Shown: piece by piece, positions 14,907 through 26,189 of the stretch
Layout: each line of letters opens with the position of its first letter
Numbering within the stretch: position 1 is the stretch's first letter
Source of the DNA: Candidatus Cloacimonadota bacterium
GTDB lineage: Bacteria > Cloacimonadota > Cloacimonadia > Cloacimonadales > Cloacimonadaceae
Direction: 5' to 3'
Assembly (NCBI GenBank): GCA_028695495.1
Contig: JAQVIX010000013.1
Coordinates: 1-40,506, forward strand
Length of the DNA stretch: 40,506 bases
The notes under the pieces: generated by a model
What the model saw: the letters and a program-made list of their open reading frames with translations, nothing else
Database searches by the model: none
What the model was told of the DNA's origin: nothing
Program-made: the position numbers and the translations under genes

Positions 14907-16181
14907 TTAACACCCCCTATAGAATATCTTGGCTAGCAAAGACTGCTCAATTTTATTAATATGGGCAATTGCGGTTTGGTATTTAGTATGGATTGTATCT
15001 GCAAGTTTAAGCAACTGCTGAACTTGTCTAACAATCTCTTTTTGCTCTTCAATTGGTGGTAAAGGGATTAAAAACGTTGATAACATAGTAGCGTTAATAT
15101 TTGACTGCCCGACTCCATCTATTCTTACTTCTTTGCACCATTGACGTCCATAGTTTGAGTTGAGACAGTAATTGAGGTATTCAGACAGAAGCAGCTCACG
15201 TCTGTTCTTGATTTTGATTATGTACCCCGCGAAAATGGCCTTTGTCTGACCTTGGAAAATGGAGGTTTTACCTACTAAATCTGGGCTATTGGTCCTGTTA
15301 AATAATACATCTCCATCTGATAAAGCATATTTTTCTATATCTGAATCATCACTTGAATATTTAAGATTTGACCAGTCTATTTCTCCATTTTGCAGGTTCC
15401 CCATTCTGATGACAGGCACCAAGCCTTCTAATTCTGATTTTTTAGAAGTGCCGTACTGGAATCCCTCAGATAATCTTTTTAAGTCTACCATTATCCAGTG
15501 GTCTGGGAAACCATCAATTGAATCATTAGCATCATTCTCAAGCATTCTTATAACTTCTACCCATTTGTCGTGATTATAAGTATCGTAGTTTTCTAATAGA
15601 ACTCCACTACATGCAGCACTGAGAACACTCTGGCGAAATCTTTTGAGAAGGATAGGTATTTTCTCAAGCCGTACCTTTAGCTGTCTGACTTTTGGTAGGA
15701 TGACATCCAGCTTTTCCACTATTTGTTCTTGTTCGCCTAATGGGGGAAGAGGAAACAATATACTAGAAAGATTGGCATCATTTATGGAAATTTGTGTGCA
15801 TCCTGTTGCCCCGTCATCTTTCAGTTGTAGAAAATGAGGAGACTGCAAATAGTAGTATACAAATCTTGGATTAACGGAATTATCTAATGGTCTAAAATGC
15901 ATAAAACCAGTTGAGAAAAGACAGGAATCTAAATCGTCATCTACAAAAACCGGTTTATTAGTATCTTTCATTCTGGCTTGCAAGATATCGCCCTTTTTTA
16001 CAATTCTATTAGCCCTTGATGGTCTGTCATTGTATGAGAATTCTCCCTCAGAAGTGAGTCCATTGATTTGAATACTGCCAGTCGAAAAGTACTTTTTCTT
16101 ACCTTCATAAGGGTGAACACCAGTTTTTATATATTTAATAGCCTTAAAAATAGGTTTGTGTTCCCAGTTTTCAGTTCTCAT
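14907..16181 (-). CDS. hsdS: Type I restriction-modification specificity subunit
   Basis: DNA-recognition subunit of a type I system. The 424-residue protein has two target-recognition domains (about 1-140 and 225-375). Each is followed by a conserved helical spacer: PLPPLGEQEQIVEKLDVILP (about 148-210) and PLPPIEEQKEIVRQVQQLLK (about 370-420). These determine the two halves of a bipartite target site. Both half-domains and spacers are intact, so the gene appears functional. The start overlaps the hsdM end by 11 nt. Being the last gene and next to a MITE, it is well placed for exchange of specificity domains. Confidence 0.93.
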   Translation of the reverse strand: MRTENWEHKPIFKAIKYIKTGVHPYEGKKKYFSTGSIQINGLTSEGEFSYNDRPSRANRIVKKGDILQARMKDTNKPVFVDDDLDSCLFSTGFMHFRPLDNSVNPRFVYYYLQSPHFLQLKDDGATGCTQISINDANLSSILFPLPPLGEQEQIVEKLDVILPKVRQLKVRLEKIPILLKRFRQSVLSAACSGVLLENYDTYNHDKWVEVIRMLENDANDSIDGFPDHWIMVDLKRLSEGFQYGTSKKSELEGLVPVIRMGNLQNGEIDWSNLKYSSDDSDIEKYALSDGDVLFNRTNSPDLVGKTSIFQGQTKAIFAGYIIKIKNRRELLLSEYLNYCLNSNYGRQWCKEVRIDGVGQSNINATMLSTFLIPLPPIEEQKEIVRQVQQLLKLADTIHTKYQTAIAHINKIEQSLLAKIFYRGC

Positions 16182-17574
16182 TGTTGCTTTCCACTAATTC
16201 TGAAAGTTCCTTGAGTTCATCCAAAACTGCTTCCAGTTCCGTTACAGCCTCATTAATCAGATCAATTGGTTCAGGCAGATTATCCGGATCATCCAAAGAC
16301 TCATCTTTCAGCCATTTAATATCCAGATTGTAATTGCGGGCTTTGATTTCCTCAATGGAGAATTTGCGGAATCTACCCGTTTCACCTTGATCGGTACGTT
16401 TGCTATTACCATTTGGATCACCGCCGTAGCATTGCTCAAAGTCGGTGAACATCTCAGCGGTTAAGGGTCTGTCTTTCTTAGTGCAGGTGGGGATATTGGT
16501 ACGGCAGTCATAAATCCAGGTTTCTTTGCTTGCTTTGCCTTTTTGGAAAAAGACCACATTGGCTTGGGCGTTTGCGTAAGGTATAAAAGTCCCTCTGGGT
16601 AAGCGCAAGATAGTATGCACGTTACAATCTGTCATTAGAATTTCAAACACGTCTCCGGCTTTGTCTTCAAAGAGACAATTATCCGGCAAAACCACAGCAG
16701 CCCTGCCACCCGGTTTGTGGATGGTGAGAATGTGTTGCAGGAAGTTCAATTGCTTATTGGCTGTGCGGATAGTAAAATCATCCCGCGCTGGTGCTTCGCC
16801 GGCTCCTTTGGTACCAAAAGGTGGATTAGTGAGAATTATGTCATAACGTTCTCCGCGACCTGCTTCGTAGATGGTGTCCCCCAGATAGATGGTGGGGTTC
16901 AAGCCATGCAGATAGAGATTCATCAAAGCCAATCGCCGGGGACGAGGTACCAGGTCTTGACCATAGTAGGTCTTTTCTTTGATGCGTTTGATCTCCTTTT
17001 GGGGCAATGCACCTTTGGTTTCTTGGATCAGCCATTCATAAGCAGCTATCAGAAAACCACCTGTCCCACAAGCAGGATCGCAGATTGTAATAGCTTGTTT
17101 GATTGGATCAGGCTTCATTACCCGGACAATGGACTGGATCAGCACCCGGGGTGTAAAATACTGTCCAGCTCCTTTCTTGCCTTCGCTTGCAGCTTTTTCC
17201 AGCAGACCTTCAAAAGCTTCGGCTTTCACGTCCACACCTAAGGCAGACCAATCTTCGCCATCAATCACATTCAGGATTTTCTTAAGAGCTACCGGATTGG
17301 CAAACTTGGGCATGGCCTGGGCAAAGATATCTCCCAGGAGTCCCGGAGCTTCCCTAAGGGTTTGCAGAACTATCAGATAGTGATCTGTAAGGGCAGTTCC
17401 ATTCTTTTCTTTTAGGGTAGTCCAGTCGCAGTCGGCAGGTAGTTGGATTTCCTTTTCTTCAGCCATTTTGATAAATAGCAGATAGGTAAGCTGTTCTATG
17501 TAATCGCCATAATCGATACCATCATGGCGCATGGTATGGCATAAACCCCACAGTTTGTTTACAACATCAGCCAT
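16171..17574 (-). CDS. hsdM: Type I restriction-modification methyltransferase subunit
   Basis: N6-adenine methyltransferase of the type I complex. 467 residues with an N-terminal helical domain (LWGLCHTMRHDGIDYGDYIEQL), the S-adenosylmethionine motif DPACGTGGF (166-174) and the catalytic NPPF (250-253). It begins 15 nt after hsdR and overlaps hsdS. All key residues are present, so active protection methylation is expected. Confidence 0.95.
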   Translation of the reverse strand: MADVVNKLWGLCHTMRHDGIDYGDYIEQLTYLLFIKMAEEKEIQLPADCDWTTLKEKNGTALTDHYLIVLQTLREAPGLLGDIFAQAMPKFANPVALKKILNVIDGEDWSALGVDVKAEAFEGLLEKAASEGKKGAGQYFTPRVLIQSIVRVMKPDPIKQAITICDPACGTGGFLIAAYEWLIQETKGALPQKEIKRIKEKTYYGQDLVPRPRRLALMNLYLHGLNPTIYLGDTIYEAGRGERYDIILTNPPFGTKGAGEAPARDDFTIRTANKQLNFLQHILTIHKPGGRAAVVLPDNCLFEDKAGDVFEILMTDCNVHTILRLPRGTFIPYANAQANVVFFQKGKASKETWIYDCRTNIPTCTKKDRPLTAEMFTDFEQCYGGDPNGNSKRTDQGETGRFRKFSIEEIKARNYNLDIKWLKDESLDDPDNLPEPIDLINEAVTELEAVLDELKELSELVESNNEN

Positions 17575-17589
17575 GTATGTTCAATCTCC

Positions 17590-20274
17590 TTAAGCAGTTA
17601 TCTTGAGGGTTATTTCGGTGATGAGGTCATCCAGAAAGGAGCCAAAGACCTTTCTGGCTCTTGCCAGACCGCCGTGCATCTCCAATATTGGAATTAAGTT
17701 AAAGGCGTGCTTGTCCAAAGTAAGGTTTTGGATCAAGTGTTCTTTAATGAAAGCGAGCCACTGCAATTGTTCAGAATTGAAATCATGAGCTTGAATCATC
17801 TCTGTTATTACTCGTTCTACCCTTTCCTGGGCAGTGTAGAGCGGATAAATCTCATCTTCGGCATGATGTATCATGGAGATGATATCAGCCATTGCCTTGT
17901 GCCCGGATTTCTCATGGGCTTTCTGGACTTTCTCCTCGTCAAAGCTATTTCTTTTTAGTTCGTTGCGTAGCTCAGTAAGCGCCTCATAGTTCCATTTGTA
18001 AGGATTATTGAGCAAGATGGAAAGGGCTTCGATCTTGTCTTTGTTGAGCTTTACAAACTCGGCAAAAGCGTCCAGATAGTCTTCGGGTTTTAACTGATCA
18101 TCTCCCACCCTGAACACATATTCCGAGCTTACTGAATCTCTCTCAGCGTAATCGATGTAGAAAGGCTTACGTGCTCTGTCATAGTTGATCAGCAGGTCTT
18201 GAAACTTAGGATTTCTGAGGATAGCCATTGTGCCAGTGAAGTCATCTTTTAGCATTGTTTTCAGGTTATCGGCAAAGCCTTTAAGGTCCCCATCGGGAAT
18301 GAAAGCTTCAAAAGCTTCCCTGGCTTTGGCGCTCATGGTCTCGGCAATTCTACGCAAGCGCTTGATAAGGCGATTCTTGTTGTATTCGGACTCAATATTG
18401 TTCCAGATGTTTTCAATGATTTCCTTGATAGTAACGGCTTGCCCTTCTTCAGGAATCTCAATAATAAAATCGGTAGAATACGTAAAATACTGGATCAGAG
18501 TACCATCGAAGCAATCAAAGATAGTGAAACACTCTTTATTGATCTCGGTGCATTTACGGGTACCCCGTCCCAGCATCTGAGTCCAGAGGATACGGGATTT
18601 TACTGGTCTGAGGAAGACAATGTATTCTAATGCTGGGATATCTACTCCGGTGGATAGCATATCTACTGTAACAACTACTGAAGGCTCAGGACGGTTGCGA
18701 AAACGCCTGATTTTTTCCAGCGGCTTATCCACATTGGGGTTGCCGGTTATCTTTTGTACAAAATCATCCCCACGCATGAGAATCTCTCTTGCGATACGTA
18801 CGAGCTGATCAGAATGAGATTTGTGTTGGATATCATTTACAGCGAAGATCAGTGTTTTGGGGAATCTGCCGGTACGATCTTCATGCTCAAGGGCGTAGCT
18901 GAAAACCTCAGTGAGAATCTTTCGGTTGCTATCCAGAGAAGTGATGTTTTGCTCTATCTCACTGGCATCGAATTCTCTCACATCTTCAAGTGCATCGATC
19001 CTTTCCTGCCCGGTCTCGGTATCTTTCATGCCAATCTTTTCCCCTTCACTCAAGAAAATGCCATTGATCCGGACTTTGGAGCTTATCTTCACGGCCTCAT
19101 AATCAACCAGGAAACCGTCTAAAACGGCTTGTTCATAGGTATAGCGATAAACCGGCTGACCAAAGATGGCAGTGGTATGAGCGGCAGGAGTGGCAGTAAG
19201 TCCAACTTTGATGGCATCAAAGTGATTTATGGTGTTTCGCCAAATGCCCTCATCCCTGGGCGTGTAACCACGGTGGCATTCGTCTGCAATGATCACATCA
19301 AAGGCATTATTGGCAATATCCAGTCTTATAGCTTCATCGTCAATGTCTGGGTCATCACCTTGAAGAAAGCTATTCTCCCTGCCAAAGAGATTCATAGCCA
19401 TGCGCTGGATCGTGCAGATATAGACAAATGACTTGGCGGAATCGGGGCTTGTGAGATAGTTATTGGGTAGTATATTCACATCAAACTTTTCGTCTTCTTC
19501 AAAGTCATCAGCCTGAAAGCGTTGGCTGTAAACCTCATATTCTTGATTAAACTTATTACGAGACGGGGTTTCAAAAGAATGAAAAGCCACTGCTGCCTGG
19601 GCTGCCAAAGCCCTACGATCAACCAGAAAGAGAACTCGCTTGGCAAGACCGGACTTAAGTAAACGATAAATCATAGCCACAGCAGTATAGGTCTTTCCTG
19701 TGCCCGTAGCCATCGCCAGCATCATCACACGTTTGCCGCTTTCTATCGTTCTTTCAATAGATTGGATGGCTTCGATTTGGTAATACCGGATTTTATCAAG
19801 ATCAATAGGATTAAGTTGGAGCCATTCGTAAGCGTTGCCAACAGATTGATTGAACATATCCAGCATTGCCTGACTGCTGTGAAAGCCACTCAGATCGCGG
19901 GCATAGTATGTAGAACTTCTTAGATCTGCAAACGATATGCGGGTTCCATTGCTGGAATAGATAAAAGGTACTCGGAAGGCGTTCCATTCACCTATTGTGT
20001 AGGGACATCCAAGAGAATAGCGTTTAGCTTGTTCCAGGGCATTTTGAGCGTCTATAGAGACTTTCTTTGCTTCAATAATCCCAAGCAGCTTTCCTTGAAC
20101 AAACAGGGCATAATCTGCAAATCCGTTTTGGGTGGGGTATTCTTCTACTGCATGATGTGTAAGAGCGGATGTATCCTTTACTTGATTGTAGTGGATTATC
20201 TTCCAGGATGGATTCAATGCCCTAAGCTGGTAATCAATACGCCGTTTTCTTGTTAACCATTCAGATTCGTACAC
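17590..20274 (-). CDS. hsdR: Type I restriction endonuclease subunit (motor and nuclease)
   Basis: ATP-driven DNA translocase and nuclease. The 894-residue protein has an N-terminal PD-(D/E)xK nuclease (GFADYALF with D54, then IIEAKK with E68 and K70), a helicase core with ATGTGKT (189-195) and DECH (331-334), the later motif DMLSTGVDIPALEYIVFLRPV, and a C-terminal helical region of EcoEI/EcoR124 type. The start is GTG at 20274, giving MYESEWLTRKRRID, with only a weak ribosome site. The gene is unbroken. First of three tightly linked hsd genes; a small unknown gene lies 22 nt upstream. Confidence 0.94.
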   Translation of the reverse strand: MYESEWLTRKRRIDYQLRALNPSWKIIHYNQVKDTSALTHHAVEEYPTQNGFADYALFVQGKLLGIIEAKKVSIDAQNALEQAKRYSLGCPYTIGEWNAFRVPFIYSSNGTRISFADLRSSTYYARDLSGFHSSQAMLDMFNQSVGNAYEWLQLNPIDLDKIRYYQIEAIQSIERTIESGKRVMMLAMATGTGKTYTAVAMIYRLLKSGLAKRVLFLVDRRALAAQAAVAFHSFETPSRNKFNQEYEVYSQRFQADDFEEDEKFDVNILPNNYLTSPDSAKSFVYICTIQRMAMNLFGRENSFLQGDDPDIDDEAIRLDIANNAFDVIIADECHRGYTPRDEGIWRNTINHFDAIKVGLTATPAAHTTAIFGQPVYRYTYEQAVLDGFLVDYEAVKISSKVRINGIFLSEGEKIGMKDTETGQERIDALEDVREFDASEIEQNITSLDSNRKILTEVFSYALEHEDRTGRFPKTLIFAVNDIQHKSHSDQLVRIAREILMRGDDFVQKITGNPNVDKPLEKIRRFRNRPEPSVVVTVDMLSTGVDIPALEYIVFLRPVKSRILWTQMLGRGTRKCTEINKECFTIFDCFDGTLIQYFTYSTDFIIEIPEEGQAVTIKEIIENIWNNIESEYNKNRLIKRLRRIAETMSAKAREAFEAFIPDGDLKGFADNLKTMLKDDFTGTMAILRNPKFQDLLINYDRARKPFYIDYAERDSVSSEYVFRVGDDQLKPEDYLDAFAEFVKLNKDKIEALSILLNNPYKWNYEALTELRNELKRNSFDEEKVQKAHEKSGHKAMADIISMIHHAEDEIYPLYTAQERVERVITEMIQAHDFNSEQLQWLAFIKEHLIQNLTLDKHAFNLIPILEMHGGLARARKVFGSFLDDLITEITLKITA

Positions 20275-20296: not shown

Positions 20297-20593
20297 TCAC
20301 TTCGTTGTTTTTCTATTATGGTATCCAGAAGCTATTACACCTCTGGACGATATTAAGGTTTCAACGGATTCACCTGGAGGGGGAGATGTCGGAGCTGTAA
20401 GATCAGGAAAGGATATATCCCACAGATTTTGGACTTTCTCAATTTTGTATTCGGCAAAAGATTCATCAGGCTTCCAGATATTCCACTCTATTTTTTGGTA
20501 TATTCGCCCTACTAGCGAAAAACTAACATGTTGCTCATCGGAGAACACGCCATCTTTAAGCAGCTTCCTGAAGATTTCAATTACTCCTTTCAT
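20297..20593 (-). CDS. Hypothetical protein upstream of hsdR
   Basis: A 98-residue protein I do not recognise. It has an amphipathic N-terminus (MKGVIEIFRKLLKDGVFSDEQ), a tryptophan-rich middle (WNIWKPDE, NLWDISFPDL) and a Pro/Gly-rich stretch near 70-75. There is no signal peptide or membrane segment. A GAGGG-like ribosome site lies just before the ATG and hsdR starts 22 nt after its stop, so it probably leads the hsd transcript. Possible roles include an antirestriction-type regulator or a control peptide, but nothing in the sequence shows this. Confidence 0.5.
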   Translation of the reverse strand: MKGVIEIFRKLLKDGVFSDEQHVSFSLVGRIYQKIEWNIWKPDESFAEYKIEKVQNLWDISFPDLTAPTSPPPGESVETLISSRGVIASGYHNRKTTK

Positions 20594-20646: not shown

Positions 20647-20662
20647 ATCTGTCAATCAAAAT
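20647..20662 (+). repeat. 16-bp direct repeat, left copy
   Basis: ATCTGTCAATCAAAAT occurs exactly here and again at 25980-25995, in the same orientation, on either side of the methylase / GHKL / receiver genes. It could mark the edges of an inserted segment, or be two copies of a promoter element (its complement contains TTGACA). Confidence 0.5.
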
Positions 20663-21075: not shown

Positions 21076-22296
21076 TTATTTGATTATACTGTTGCCGACT
21101 CTATTCAGATAGCAAGAAGTTTTTGCTTGGATCTCGTTTGAAAGAGCTCTTCGGATACGGAATTCAGGGACTTCCAGATCGCTTTCTGATGCAAGCATAG
21201 TAGTTCCTAAATGAAGGCAAATCTGCGCTATCTTATTATCATATAGAAAAGGTCCGAAACATTCTATTGCTTGAGTTTTTTTAATTTTTGTGTCATTTGC
21301 AAGAATCAAGCCCTTCAACACGCGATGTATAGTTTCATTGTCTTTTGTTTTTAGAGTCTTTTTTTGTGCAATATCACATTCAGATGTAATTACAACATCT
21401 ATGTGGCAAAGCACCCCATCAGCCTGCTGTACATTGAAGTATTTTTTTACCGATTTTACGCAATCATCTTCAGTCTTACATTTCATGACATCGCCTGTTC
21501 TAATCGATTCATGGGTGTTGCTGTCTATAAATAACCAGTTATTTATCTTGGCTTTTATCTCCTCTTCCAGCTTCCTGTATTGTAGTTCAAAACCATCCGG
21601 ACAGCTCAAATCATTGTTGGTGAGTTTATGTAAAATATCATCAAAACTCTGATTCAGCAATCTTAACGCTGCTTTGAAATTAGTATCATTATCATTTGTA
21701 TTCTGACCTAAATCAGCTTGTGCCATTCCGTATAATATTCCTGATATTTTAGATGACCATTCCTCGTCTACTTGAACCAAAGATGAAAAATCGTGAACAA
21801 AATCTGAACAAGACTTGTGAACGAGATTTTCCCATTGTACCAAAGATAATAAGGCACCGTTTTCTTTAAGCTTATCGTTAATGAAGATAGGAAGATCATG
21901 ATAACTGTTTGCCGCGCACGTCGTTTTTTCAAGGTCTACGTAATGTATGGGAGGGATTTCTGCCTTTTTACAATAATTGATTACGTTCTCAATAATCTCT
22001 TGATGCTTAGTCCAAAATATAACTGTAAATGGTCCGTTTTCCTTGGAAATGATTTTGCTTAGTTTACTGACAAGTGATGATGCCATACTTTTTTCGTCTC
22101 TCCCGCCAAATCCATCAAGCTCAATATCTAAGAAAACAAATCTAATCCCATTCATGGGAGCTTTTGGCAAATCGTCTTCTTCTCCTGAAAAGTAATAGTA
22201 AGGCGCACCCATCTTTGATAATGACACCATCAGAGGGAGAACTTCATTAAGTTTGTCATCGATGATTACTATACGACCGCTGTTTGTTAAATACAT
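21076..22296 (-). CDS. Receiver-domain protein with unassigned C-terminal domain
   Basis: A 406-residue protein. Residues 1-130 look like a response-regulator receiver: RIVIIDDK with acidic D13/D14, the predicted phospho-acceptor D57 in FVFLDIELDGFGG, T96 in VIFWTKH and a K124 at the place of the conserved lysine. Residues 130-406 match no output domain I know; they contain a helical segment (about 145-255) and a conserved-looking VVITSECDIAQKK stretch at 301-313. There is no obvious DNA-binding helix-turn-helix. It starts 2 nt after the GHKL gene, so the two are almost certainly co-translated, suggesting the GHKL protein is its partner kinase. Base composition is more A+T-rich than in the flanking core genes. 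Confidence 0.75.
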   Translation of the reverse strand: MYLTNSGRIVIIDDKLNEVLPLMVSLSKMGAPYYYFSGEEDDLPKAPMNGIRFVFLDIELDGFGGRDEKSMASSLVSKLSKIISKENGPFTVIFWTKHQEIIENVINYCKKAEIPPIHYVDLEKTTCAANSYHDLPIFINDKLKENGALLSLVQWENLVHKSCSDFVHDFSSLVQVDEEWSSKISGILYGMAQADLGQNTNDNDTNFKAALRLLNQSFDDILHKLTNNDLSCPDGFELQYRKLEEEIKAKINNWLFIDSNTHESIRTGDVMKCKTEDDCVKSVKKYFNVQQADGVLCHIDVVITSECDIAQKKTLKTKDNETIHRVLKGLILANDTKIKKTQAIECFGPFLYDNKIAQICLHLGTTMLASESDLEVPEFRIRRALSNEIQAKTSCYLNRVGNSIIK

Positions 22297-22298
22297 CT

Positions 22299-24401
22299 TT
22301 ATTCCTTTTTAAAAGCCAACTGAATAATCGCACCCTTTGAGAATTCTTGCGGAATCTCAAAATCCTCGAAGTCAGGGAAAAGCAGCATACCTTCCTGAAA
22401 CTTCATTAACATCTCAGTAAGATGAAGTCCAATACCGGTGCCATCAGGCTTCTCTGTCACAAAAGCTTGTATCATCATATGTGGTGATAGTGTAAAGCCA
22501 CAACCATTATCTGCAATGATTATGCTTGTGTGTCCAGCAGGAGCATCTACAATGTTAACGAATATCTTCTTTATCTTCTGTCTTGAATAATCAAGCCACC
22601 ATAGTGAATTGTCAATTACACTAATCATGGAATTCATAACATGATTTTCCGAACAAATGGCATAACTAATAGGTAAATTAGTTTTTACCATATTGACAAC
22701 CTCTACTTCATGCTGTCTTATTCGGAATATCATACTGTCAAGACACCGATTGACAATTTTGTTAATATTTTGTTTCTTGACATCAGTTTTCCTTACAATG
22801 ACGCTATACCCCTCAACTAATCTTGATAACAACTTCAGGCTATCCTCAATCTTTTCATGGGAAACCTCATTTTGATTCATTAGAATTAGTTCTTTTATCA
22901 TTTTCTCCACTTGATGAAGCACAGTAAACATTGCTAACCCTGCTCCAGCACTTTTTATTAGAACATCGATAACATGCTGATACTCAACCCGGATTCTATC
23001 CAAATACTTATAAATTTGTTTTTTAACGATGGGTTCAGCGACCCTCTTTTCAACAAATTCTTCCAATTCTCTGATAGATTTATTTACAGGTTCAGTTTTA
23101 GACTTAGTGTTATATGCAATTCTGATTCTGTCCTTATCAATTTGTCGCTGCGATTCAACTCTGTTAAGTGCATAAAGCACTGCATTCCTAAGTGTAATGA
23201 AGGCATTGTTTTCAATGAAACCTTCTCGGTTTGACTTCTCAACAAGATCCATACTACTTTCCGCACTAATGTAAACTGCGCCAATAATTAGGTTATTGCT
23301 TACTCTTTTTGTTGGAAGATTTATTCGTCTTACACCAAGCCCGAGCCAGTCTGTGTTGGGTTCACCATAATCTAAAACCCGCATTGAATCCCTATATACC
23401 CTTATGCCACCATTGTTATCTAAGTACTTCTTAACTGATGTTTTTTCAATATTCATTAAGCTAAGAATCTGTGCGTCAAGATCAAATATAACGCCCCTAA
23501 ATCTTACTTTTCCTATTCTGTAGATATCTAAATCGACGGTTTTTATTTCCTTATTATCATCTTTAACAATCATCCGACAGGTTTTTTTTATGTTCTCGTT
23601 AGACATGTCAATATGGCGATTACTGATCTTATCCATTGTACCCCATGGGGAAAATCGATAGTCAAAATCCACAATAGAATCGCCTTTCATTGTCACGTCA
23701 AATGAAAATAAACTATTTGATAGTATATCATCAACTGCAGGAAGCCCTGACAACCAGTCACTGCCTATTATATTAAACTCAGTTCTAAATTTACTCTCAT
23801 CTTCAAAAGGAGAGTTTAGAGACGTAATAATCCTTGCACTTTCTCTTGCGGTTTGTTTCGTCCATGCGTTTCTCAGCTTTGATATTTCAATTACAGTACC
23901 TGTCGAGTTTATAAAGTGCTTTGGATCTCTTTGAATGATCAATACCGGAAGTGATTCAATATAATCTGTTTGGGAAACTTGATCCCATTTGATTGTTACA
24001 ACAAATTCTTTTTCATCCCTTCTCGTTATTATTGTTATTATTCTACCTAATTTATGGACACCAAATCGTCCAATTCCTTTTTCTCCCAGTCTTTTACGGT
24101 GATATTTTTTTGTTAGCATAGACAATTTGTTCTTTTCTATATCAGATTTATAATCTGTTCCTATCTCCAGCCAAGCCTTCTTGATAATATGCTCATTCAT
24201 ACCCTCGCCATCGTCTTCGATAATAATCTTACCTAATTCAACATCCCAAGGTTCTCTCATCGTAACCTTACAATATGATGCATCAGCGTCATATGAGTTC
24301 TTAATTAACTCTAATAGTGCTACTGATTCGTTTCTAATGAGTTGCTCGCCGAGTTGTTCAAGTAATCTGGCTCTGGTTTTAAACTGAGCTTCAATCTTCA
24401 T
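22299..24401 (-). CDS. Protein with two GHKL ATPase modules (MutL/MORC-like plus histidine-kinase-like)
   Basis: A 700-residue protein when started at ATG 24401, which has AAAGG 9 nt upstream; the upstream ATG at 24410 abuts that site. N-terminal GHKL ATPase: ELIKNSYDADA (31-41), DDGEGM (63-68), GEKGIGRFG (106-114), followed by a transducer-type domain containing GGIRVYRDSMRVLDYG. A helical linker follows with a possible phospho-acceptor H496 in FTVLHQVEKMIKEL. A second, histidine-kinase-type ATPase ends the protein: N-box VIDNS with N598, G1 DNGCGF at 631-636, and DGTGIGL at 653-659. No membrane segment, so it is cytoplasmic. It overlaps the methyltransferase gene by 11 nt and is followed by the receiver gene. 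GHKL ATPases of the MORC/MutL type are known near restriction-modification genes; the exact role here is inference. Confidence 0.85.
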   Translation of the reverse strand: MKIEAQFKTRARLLEQLGEQLIRNESVALLELIKNSYDADASYCKVTMREPWDVELGKIIIEDDGEGMNEHIIKKAWLEIGTDYKSDIEKNKLSMLTKKYHRKRLGEKGIGRFGVHKLGRIITIITRRDEKEFVVTIKWDQVSQTDYIESLPVLIIQRDPKHFINSTGTVIEISKLRNAWTKQTARESARIITSLNSPFEDESKFRTEFNIIGSDWLSGLPAVDDILSNSLFSFDVTMKGDSIVDFDYRFSPWGTMDKISNRHIDMSNENIKKTCRMIVKDDNKEIKTVDLDIYRIGKVRFRGVIFDLDAQILSLMNIEKTSVKKYLDNNGGIRVYRDSMRVLDYGEPNTDWLGLGVRRINLPTKRVSNNLIIGAVYISAESSMDLVEKSNREGFIENNAFITLRNAVLYALNRVESQRQIDKDRIRIAYNTKSKTEPVNKSIRELEEFVEKRVAEPIVKKQIYKYLDRIRVEYQHVIDVLIKSAGAGLAMFTVLHQVEKMIKELILMNQNEVSHEKIEDSLKLLSRLVEGYSVIVRKTDVKKQNINKIVNRCLDSMIFRIRQHEVEVVNMVKTNLPISYAICSENHVMNSMISVIDNSLWWLDYSRQKIKKIFVNIVDAPAGHTSIIIADNGCGFTLSPHMMIQAFVTEKPDGTGIGLHLTEMLMKFQEGMLLFPDFEDFEIPQEFSKGAIIQLAFKKE

Positions 24402-25608
24402 GCATATCATCCTTTATAGCAGAAGCAATAGCCTCTGAAAGTTTCACTGGAACAGCATTGCCTATTTGTCTGAATGCTGCTGAAAAGGAAGGATTGATTC
24501 CTTTTGATTCAAAAAAGAAATCATCTGGAAATGTTTGTAATCGTGCAGCTTCGCGTGGAGTTAATGAGCGGTTCTGATTAATATCAGGGTGTATATAGTA
24601 ATGTCCATCTTTACTGAGGTGTGCTACAATAGTATGCGAAAATTTATTGTTTCCTGCAACTACCTTAAATCGATCTTTGAATACCATTCGATTCCTGTGA
24701 GTTTTTAAATGTTCTGGAAGATCATCATAATTAACTCTTTCATTATTTTTGTCCCATTTTAAGACAACATACCTGTAAATTTCGAGATCTCTTTCAGAGT
24801 TTCTGCGAGAAATATGCTGTGTCAGTGGTGGTGTTTTGCCAATGTCTTTCCATTTACCCTTTCCTGCATTAATTTTGGGTAAGTCACCTAAGACATCCCA
24901 TACTGTTCCGTCCCATTGATTCTTAGGAATTTCGGGAAAAAACCCGTCAGGTGAACAACGTTTGCCAATAAGTATTACTCTTTTACGCAGTTGCGGAACA
25001 TTATAATCGTTAGCAGAAAGGACTCTATGTTCTGTAGTATAACCATAAGTAAAAAAAACTTCTTTCATGGTATCAATATGTTTTTTTCCATTTACATCCT
25101 TTGCAGATAAAAGACCCGTAACGTTTTCAAAAATGAAATATTTTGGCTGGAAGCGCTTAAGAAATTGAGCGTAAAAACGATATAGATAGTTTCTGCTATC
25201 GGTCAACATTCTATTCTTATCCCGAGAACGACCTACAAGAGAGTAAGCTTGGCAAGGTGGTCCTCCGATAATTAGGTCAAGTTGATTACCGTCAAGTCTT
25301 TTCTCAACACTAAGGAATAAATCATGTACTGTGTTTTCTGAAATCTCGGAATTGATAACAGCATCTATAATATTCGGTGGTGCCAATCCATACAATTCGT
25401 CTCGGGTTATTTCGTTCTTCAAATACTTGTAATACAATTCGATAGAATTATTCTCCCGCAACCAATGATAAACTTGTCTTGTTTTTAAAGTGTTGCATGC
25501 TGCAGCGTCAATTTCAATATGCGCAACAGGTCGAAACCCCTGTCTGACGAACCCCTCAGACAGGCCACCGCAACCTGCGAATAAGTCTAAGAAACTGATT
25601 AATTTCAT
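24391..25608 (-). CDS. DNA cytosine-5 methyltransferase
   Basis: A 405-residue C5-MTase with all main motifs: I FAGCGGLSEGF (10-20), IV GGPPCQ (115-120) with catalytic C119, VI ENV (161-163), VIII QLRKR (206-210), target-recognition region about 240-345, IX SLTPREAARLQTFPDDF and X QIGNAVP (381-387). There is an insertion of about 60 residues between motifs II and IV. No restriction endonuclease of the matching type is present; the next genes encode a double-GHKL ATPase and a receiver protein instead. It leads that three-gene unit, and its 3' end overlaps the GHKL start. It is A+T-richer than the core genes, in keeping with transfer. Confidence 0.95.
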   Translation of the reverse strand: MKLISFLDLFAGCGGLSEGFVRQGFRPVAHIEIDAAACNTLKTRQVYHWLRENNSIELYYKYLKNEITRDELYGLAPPNIIDAVINSEISENTVHDLFLSVEKRLDGNQLDLIIGGPPCQAYSLVGRSRDKNRMLTDSRNYLYRFYAQFLKRFQPKYFIFENVTGLLSAKDVNGKKHIDTMKEVFFTYGYTTEHRVLSANDYNVPQLRKRVILIGKRCSPDGFFPEIPKNQWDGTVWDVLGDLPKINAGKGKWKDIGKTPPLTQHISRRNSERDLEIYRYVVLKWDKNNERVNYDDLPEHLKTHRNRMVFKDRFKVVAGNNKFSHTIVAHLSKDGHYYIHPDINQNRSLTPREAARLQTFPDDFFFESKGINPSFSAAFRQIGNAVPVKLSEAIASAIKDDMHED

Positions 25609-25679: not shown

Positions 25680-26189
25680 TAACATTCGTATATCGCTGTA
25701 GTCCTCCCGAGCTTAACATAAAGCTAAATACTATGTTTCGTGACGTGGATATTTTTCAATACCATCCTTCGTTACCTGGTTCCAGCTTTTTTGTTATCCC
25801 CTTTTGGCAAATGGGGCTTGTGGCGAGGCTTGAAAAATGTCTTTGCCTGCCAATAATCCTTAAAACTATGAAGCGTCTAAACCCACTTGCGTTCTTGCCC
25901 GCAGCCTTACATAGTTTCAAAGACTATCCACCAGTATCACATCTATATTTGAATATTTGCAAGCTTATTTAAGCTAAAAATCTGTCAATCAAAATAATGC
26001 TTGCATGCTTTTTTGTGGGGTGCGTTTGCATACCCTCGTAACTCGTTAGTTTCCCGTTAGTTGTGCGGCGGATGGACGGGGAAGGGACGGGGAAGCACCA
26101 CACCAATATCGAATATAAAGCGTAAGATGCAGCATTATCAGGGAGATAGCGCTTGTCCGCCGGGCAGTAAAACTTCGATTTGGCTTAAA
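25680..26189. other. Non-coding stretch upstream of the methylase operon
   Basis: No supported gene. It contains the right copy of the 16-bp repeat ATCTGTCAATCAAAAT (25980-25995) and a short tandem of GACGGGGAAG near 26072-26094. A weak open frame at 25664-25972 has no ribosome site and no recognisable family. The region may hold relics of insertions but I cannot name one. Confidence 0.4.
25980..25995 (+). repeat. 16-bp direct repeat, right copy
   Basis: Exact second copy of ATCTGTCAATCAAAAT, first seen at 20647-20662; together they bracket about 5.3 kb containing the methylase, GHKL and receiver genes. Confidence 0.5.

Follow-up and report, generated by a model that had tools for sequence, protein, structure and literature searches.

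The window analysed here, a 40,506-nt stretch of a Candidatus Cloacimonadota genome, carries three intact genes on its minus strand, which ORF and Pfam calls bear out as the single operon originally predicted; all window features described below lie on this strand. The first gene encodes a C5-cytosine DNA methyltransferase of 405 aa (24391..25608), identified through PF00145, TIGR00675, and its motifs. It is followed by the gene for a double-GHKL protein of 703 aa (22299..24410; PF13589 and PF02518), in which a MORC-like ATPase is joined to a histidine-kinase module, and by the gene for a receiver-effector protein of 406 aa (21076..22296), recognized from its AlphaFold model and its adjacency to the GHKL gene. 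The methylase and GHKL genes overlap by 20 nt when the GHKL protein is read from its first ATG (24410); starting at the ATG at 24401 shortens the protein to 700 aa and reproduces the predicted overlap of 11 nt. The GHKL and receiver genes are separated by 2 nt, as stated earlier. In the longest GHKL reading, the histidine first numbered H496 becomes H499.

Conserved Features of the Three Proteins

The methylase matches PF00145 (E 5e-59) and TIGR00675 dcm (E 5e-51), and its nearest PADLOC model is DrmMII (E 8.5e-152). The C5 motif set is full and the catalytic motifs are intact (FAGCGG at 10, PPCQ at 117, FENV at 160, and RQIGNAV at 380). Sequence and structure prediction support an enzyme that is able to mark host DNA.

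At its N-terminus, the GHKL protein matches HATPase_c_3 (PF13589, residues 30–151, E 1e-20) and NF050001 BbrUII/HgiDII (E 4e-23). The hydrolase-type GHKL domain extends over about residues 28–180 (23871..24329), with Glu34 and Asn38 as its catalytic residues by conservation: E34, N38, G68, and G70 are each present in 64/64 relatives, and D66 in 63/64. The E-x-x-x-N motif (here E34-x-x-x-N38) is the hydrolase form, as in MutL, GyrB, and MORC, while N-x-x-x-N is the kinase form, which does without the catalytic Glu. The latter belongs to the C-terminal kinase-type HATPase_c domain (PF02518, E 3e-11; about residues 588–701, 22308..22649), where the N-box N597-x-x-x-N601 is kept in 63/64 proteins and N601 in 64/64, the window copy reading S-x-x-x-N (Ser597). 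Sequence and structure prediction support an S5 region after the MORC-like ATPase, followed by dimerization/phospho-acceptor helices (DHp) and then the kinase-type ATPase. These helices (about residues 441–538, 22797..23090), delineated by AlphaFold and conservation, carry His499 (22914–22916), which is present in 64/64 relatives. The next residue is an acid in 59/64 and Glu in 57/64; it is Gln in the window copy, as it is at loci L014 and L019. In HisKA kinases, an acid just after the phospho-acceptor His aids autophosphorylation, thus the window copy may be a slow kinase.

When the AlphaFold model of the GHKL protein (pLDDT 84.8) was searched with Foldseek, MORC3 (E 1.3e-11) and MORC2 ranked first, in alignments spanning about 470–500 columns, and HK853 appeared within the best 20 matches (E 3e-10). 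Since the hydrolase and kinase motifs differ and Foldseek returns MORC3/MORC2 together with HK853, the original reading of a MORC/MutL-type N-terminal ATPase and a kinase-type C-terminal module, which the Pfam matches also support, was right.

Pfam detects nothing in the receiver protein. Its AlphaFold model (pLDDT 92.7, pTM 0.85) comprises a beta/alpha receiver fold (~1–143), a helical middle (147–256), a mainly beta C-terminal domain, and a terminal helix. The receiver domain (about residues 1–143, 21868..22296), assigned by conservation and fold, bears the phospho-acceptor Asp57 (22126–22128). In CheY-type receivers, the acid, T, and K site residues come after beta-strands 1, 3, 4, and 5, and D13/D14, D57, T96, and K124 sit at the ends of these same predicted strands. 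All of these residues, whose retention had been read from the sequence, are present, and conservation among 60 receivers is high (D57 in 60/60, D13 and K124 each in 59/60, and T or S at 96 in 57/60). Sequence and structure prediction therefore support a complete phospho-acceptor pocket, accompanied by a separate C-terminal domain. The best PDB folds for the receiver half are PorX, FixJ, and NtrX (Foldseek), and the receiver profile gives weak matches to the PDB, every one of them a response regulator. A homologue on a Campylobacter plasmid (L006), which falls in the same profile family as the window receiver (E 1e-30), has a sub-threshold match to PF00072 (E 2e-5).

The C-terminal output domain (about residues 240–406, 21079..21579) carries an N..G..CD signature, formed by N252, G268, C307, and D308, that is invariant in 60/60 receivers. 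Foldseek matched the receiver protein to MazF-mt1 (E 1e-3, TM 0.66), and a fold search of BFVD, a second independent library, returned PemK/MazF (E 4e-4, TM 0.68). Because response regulators already match the receiver half, the PemK/MazF match probably belongs to the C-terminal segment, and this predicted fold at the receiver C-terminus is new here. The likeness to MazF/PemK toxins lies in the predicted fold, whereas profile-level sequence similarity is absent (no PF02452 match, and nothing from an hhalign profile comparison with a mostly correct MazF set) and the invariant residues differ. MazF catalysis uses Arg and Thr, for which inspection by eye found no conserved counterpart in the 60 receivers. 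Given the lack of MazF profile kinship and of conserved MazF catalytic residues, RNase activity is not claimed, and the domain is, on its model, best described as a PemK-like barrel that has a conserved site of its own. Neither the AlphaFold model nor the fold searches gave an HTH in this domain. At two other loci, the receiver ORF is shortened to about 245 aa, and the gene behind it (L063:10931-11887 and L072:10925-11899) is of the metallo-beta-lactamase fold and perhaps an alternative output module.

Recurrence, Companion Genes, and Genomic Context

Further loci were picked by the GHKL protein alone, blind to the methylase and receiver, with one genome scanned per species. This yielded 80 loci, and in 78 of them the GHKL gene is full-length. 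Directly after it, on the same strand, comes the receiver gene in 72/75 loci with room; on the other side, its immediate upstream neighbor is a same-strand C5 methylase gene in 40/76, and 65/78 have a C5 methylase anywhere in the locus. The trio postulated as a unit thus recurs, in a layout far beyond chance, and the refuting outcome named with the original prediction, that the genes would not co-occur elsewhere, is clearly contradicted. Across 35 complete trios, the correlation of distances is r = 0.92 between GHKL and receiver, 0.39 between methylase and GHKL, and 0.45 between methylase and receiver, and 0/2000 permutations reached any of the three values. From these correlations, the kinase–receiver pair moves as one unit and methylases are swapped more often. 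Members of the branch occur in many bacterial phyla and in two archaeal MAGs, and also on plasmids and viral contigs, with complete trios in the IMG/VR contigs L170, L171, L173, and L174; a single-sequence scan of viral contigs gave no match, but an alignment-based scan did. In one of the loci, from an uncultured Cenarchaeum MAG (L021), GHKL–receiver pairs occur in tandem, with no C5 methylase in the 10 kb of sequence covered.

Vsr is present in 35 of 78 loci, and in many relatives a repair gene stands right behind the trio, an observation new here. Vsr lies directly 3′ of the receiver gene in L011, L014, L020, L029, L045, and L071. Its place is taken by an HhH-GPD (MutY-like) glycosylase gene, according to Pfam, in L012 (11353–12015), L013 (3876–4529), and L037 (4990–5625), and by similarity in L017; in L022, an ORF resembling an HhH-GPD glycosylase stands behind an HNH_2 gene. 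Vsr repairs T:G mismatches arising from deaminated 5-methylcytosine, a role shared by some HhH-GPD enzymes such as Mig.Mth. The two are therefore probably equivalent in role at these loci, the HhH-GPD genes likely being a second route for repair of 5-methylcytosine deamination, and the methylase is presumably active. A genome-wide search found no Vsr anywhere in the source genome, thus its absence at the window trio is not merely a lack of linkage.

The window operon contains no type II endonuclease and no cognate endonuclease for the methylase, and no convincing remnant of an endonuclease gene turned up in the stretch from the receiver gene to hsdR. The 98-aa ORF in this interval (20297–20593) has no Pfam, PADLOC, or NCBIfam match. 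Several close relatives likewise have no recognizable endonuclease beside the trio, which is also new here: L011, L012, L014, L017, L020, and L029 consist of the trio with Vsr or an HhH-GPD glycosylase, and the window trio is of this same endonuclease-less type, minus Vsr. The earlier statement that the methylase has no endonuclease partner therefore stands for the window and these relatives, but not for others, which carry XhoI (L016), AspBHI/Mrr (L025), HNH_2 (L022 and L060, with an HNH_2 cluster also in L019 and L058), a gene annotated as a type II endonuclease (L002 and L003), or, at about a dozen loci, a Z1/second-GHKL cassette. This cassette resembles previously reported operons (Iyer et al., 2008; PMC2292703) and a predicted system described in PMC9523054.

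The trio has a G+C content of 36–38%, against 45–50% over most of the window, and is absent from 59 related genomes, 11 of them from the same genus. This A+T-richness and absence point to horizontal acquisition. Relatives of the trio are found on plasmids and IMG/VR contigs, and the kinase gene flanking the trio in the window is not kept in relatives. About 0.8 kb downstream lies an apparently intact type I R-M operon (14907–20274), made up of hsdR (17590–20274), hsdM (16171–17574), and hsdS (14907–16181), which by Pfam possesses its own methylase and specificity subunit. This set was considered as a partner of the trio and set aside, since it seldom accompanies the trio across about 80 loci. 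The 15-nt motif TTTTGATTGACAGAT occurs upstream of the trio (25980..25994) and, as an exact copy, upstream of the type I R-M genes (20647–20661). No exact copy is expected in the window, and these two are also the only ones genome-wide; each is followed after 17–18 nt by TTGCAAATA. TTTTGATTGACAGAT may be a promoter or operator that the trio shares with this type I R-M operon, or else the trace of an insertion.

Relationship to Known Systems

The original prediction knew of no characterized system with this layout and allowed that related operons might be catalogued. They are, and the layout was already described, as a prediction, for proteins combining HATPase_c_3, HEF_HK, and HATPase_c whose genes have those of Response_reg_2 proteins and C5 methylases as neighbors (Bellieny-Rabelo et al., 2021; PMC8011034). 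That study named HEF_HK (PF19191) and Response_reg_2 (PF19192), reported linkage of the two genes in 91.6% of 644 regions, and noted a C5 methylase/Vsr context around them. The window trio shares with these systems its gene types and their order, the HATPase_c_3 + DHp + HATPase_c architecture with a His-bearing DHp, an adjacent receiver with an invariant Asp, a nearby C5 methylase, and, in relatives, Vsr in the vicinity. The window branch is shorter, however, with proteins of 703 and 406 aa versus about 990 and 540–670 aa. PF19191 has no match in the window GHKL protein, none over the cut-off in its own genome, and none in any of 64 family members, and PF19192 matches nothing in that genome and 0/60 branch receivers. 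Among 12 PF19192 loci (L106–L117), the methylase–GHKL–receiver order is found in 11/12, the exception being L109, where the methylase is downstream in the opposite direction. The GHKL partners at these loci match the GHKL profile with E 1e-73 to 1e-83, and on this profile evidence the GHKL proteins of the two branches are plainly homologous. The receivers are linked to PF19192 profiles by profile–profile comparison only (E 9e-5 for the N-terminus and 1.5e-4 for the C-terminus), with CD and RxG signatures common to both. As PF19191 and PF19192 miss it, the window trio appears to be a shorter sister branch of the HEF_HK/Response_reg_2 systems and not a Pfam-defined member, though some members of the branch may already be in the published list. 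A search of open-access papers yielded no experimental study of the trio.

ParaMORC/MORC GHKL ATPases, including paraMORC3 and the HgiDII/BbrUII restriction enzymes, have been described in R-M operons (Iyer et al., 2008; PMC2292703). The window protein and its relatives show their features, namely an N-terminal GHKL domain with the catalytic Glu and then an S5 module, in a context of cytosine methylases, Vsr, and R-M genes. In paraMORC3, however, the C-terminus is a nuclease domain, whereas the window protein has a histidine-kinase module there and a receiver gene next to it. An annotated ParaMORC3 lies beside a Dcm methylase in the P2-like Escherichia phage PhiR44_1 (L250:3989-7037); it is related to the N-terminal GHKL module but is of the nuclease type.

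A histidine kinase and receiver also serve defense in Detocs, an anti-phage two-component system with a nucleoside-phosphorylase effector and without a methylase or MORC module. The trio differs in having both of the latter, and Pfam detected no phosphorylase-type effector gene in its operon.

Possible Functions of the Operon

The best explanation, about which confidence is evenly divided, is that the operon is a mobile, methylation-coupled signaling or defense module, from the shorter branch that is sister to the predicted paraMORC two-component-like (HEF_HK/Response_reg_2) systems. Sequence and structure prediction establish its architecture, the conservation of its phosphotransfer residues and of its gene linkage, and the co-inheritance of its genes. 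In the mechanism proposed, the MORC-like part would act as a clamp, gated by ATP, that closes on DNA and would signal DNA without the host C5 mark, upon which the kinase part would phosphorylate Asp57 of the receiver. Phosphorylation would free the C-terminal domain, which may then act on nucleic acid in a restriction-like or growth-arresting manner, or alternatively may license an associated endonuclease where one exists. Several observations weigh against this module. The canonical two-component residues (phospho-acceptor His and Asp, and Mg/ATP residues) are conserved, but the window copy has Gln after His499 and Ser in its N-box; the MazF catalytic Arg and Thr appear to be without counterparts, and the MazF profile comparison was empty; and other relatives carry conventional endonucleases, which would be superfluous to a self-sufficient effector. 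A more specific proposal, in which a restriction-like immune system without an endonuclease uses a MORC-type clamp to sense DNA without the host C5 mark and passes the signal through a His-Asp relay to a receiver with a PemK/MazF-fold effector domain, seems unlikely.

The chief rivals dispense with either the effector or the phosphate. It has been speculated that such pairs have a regulatory role (PMC8011034), and the GHKL–receiver pair could be a cytoplasmic two-component regulator that adjusts how strongly the methylase and nearby R-M genes are expressed or how active they are, with the receiver's C-terminal domain binding DNA or the methylase. The conserved phosphotransfer residues and the many different endonucleases that accompany the pair fit such a role, and TTTTGATTGACAGAT upstream of both the trio and the type I R-M genes would suit co-regulation; the output domain, however, is without an HTH and resembles PemK/MazF in fold, and several loci offer only the methylase and a repair gene as targets, which leaves regulation rather unlikely. 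The GHKL and receiver proteins might instead work together as a mechanical switch or clamp complex gated by ATP, in which phosphotransfer is lost or secondary and MORC-type DNA looping, as proposed for MORC/paraMORC in R-M systems (PMC2292703), does the work. His-Gln in place of His-Glu, seen in the window copy and two relatives, Ser597 in the N-box, and MORC as the top structural match would all agree with this, yet His499 and Asp57 are invariant family-wide, His-Gln members included, and a switch of this kind is distinctly unlikely. Least credible is that the trio provides the modification function for a larger restriction complex whose nuclease is encoded elsewhere, for example by the adjacent HsdRMS set or an unlinked endonuclease. 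This is very improbable: type I-like genes, besides those 0.8 kb downstream of the window trio, recur in L033, L041, L048, L075, and L078, but these make up only 5 of about 80 loci, and the type I set is already equipped with a methylase and specificity subunit.

The methylation-coupled signaling or defense module, if its relay is real, would wire methylation-based discrimination of self from non-self to a phosphorelay and not directly to a nuclease, and would give a prokaryotic MORC-like ATPase a testable signaling role. The short branch escapes present Pfam models and is widespread, and its compact trios are easy to clone and test.
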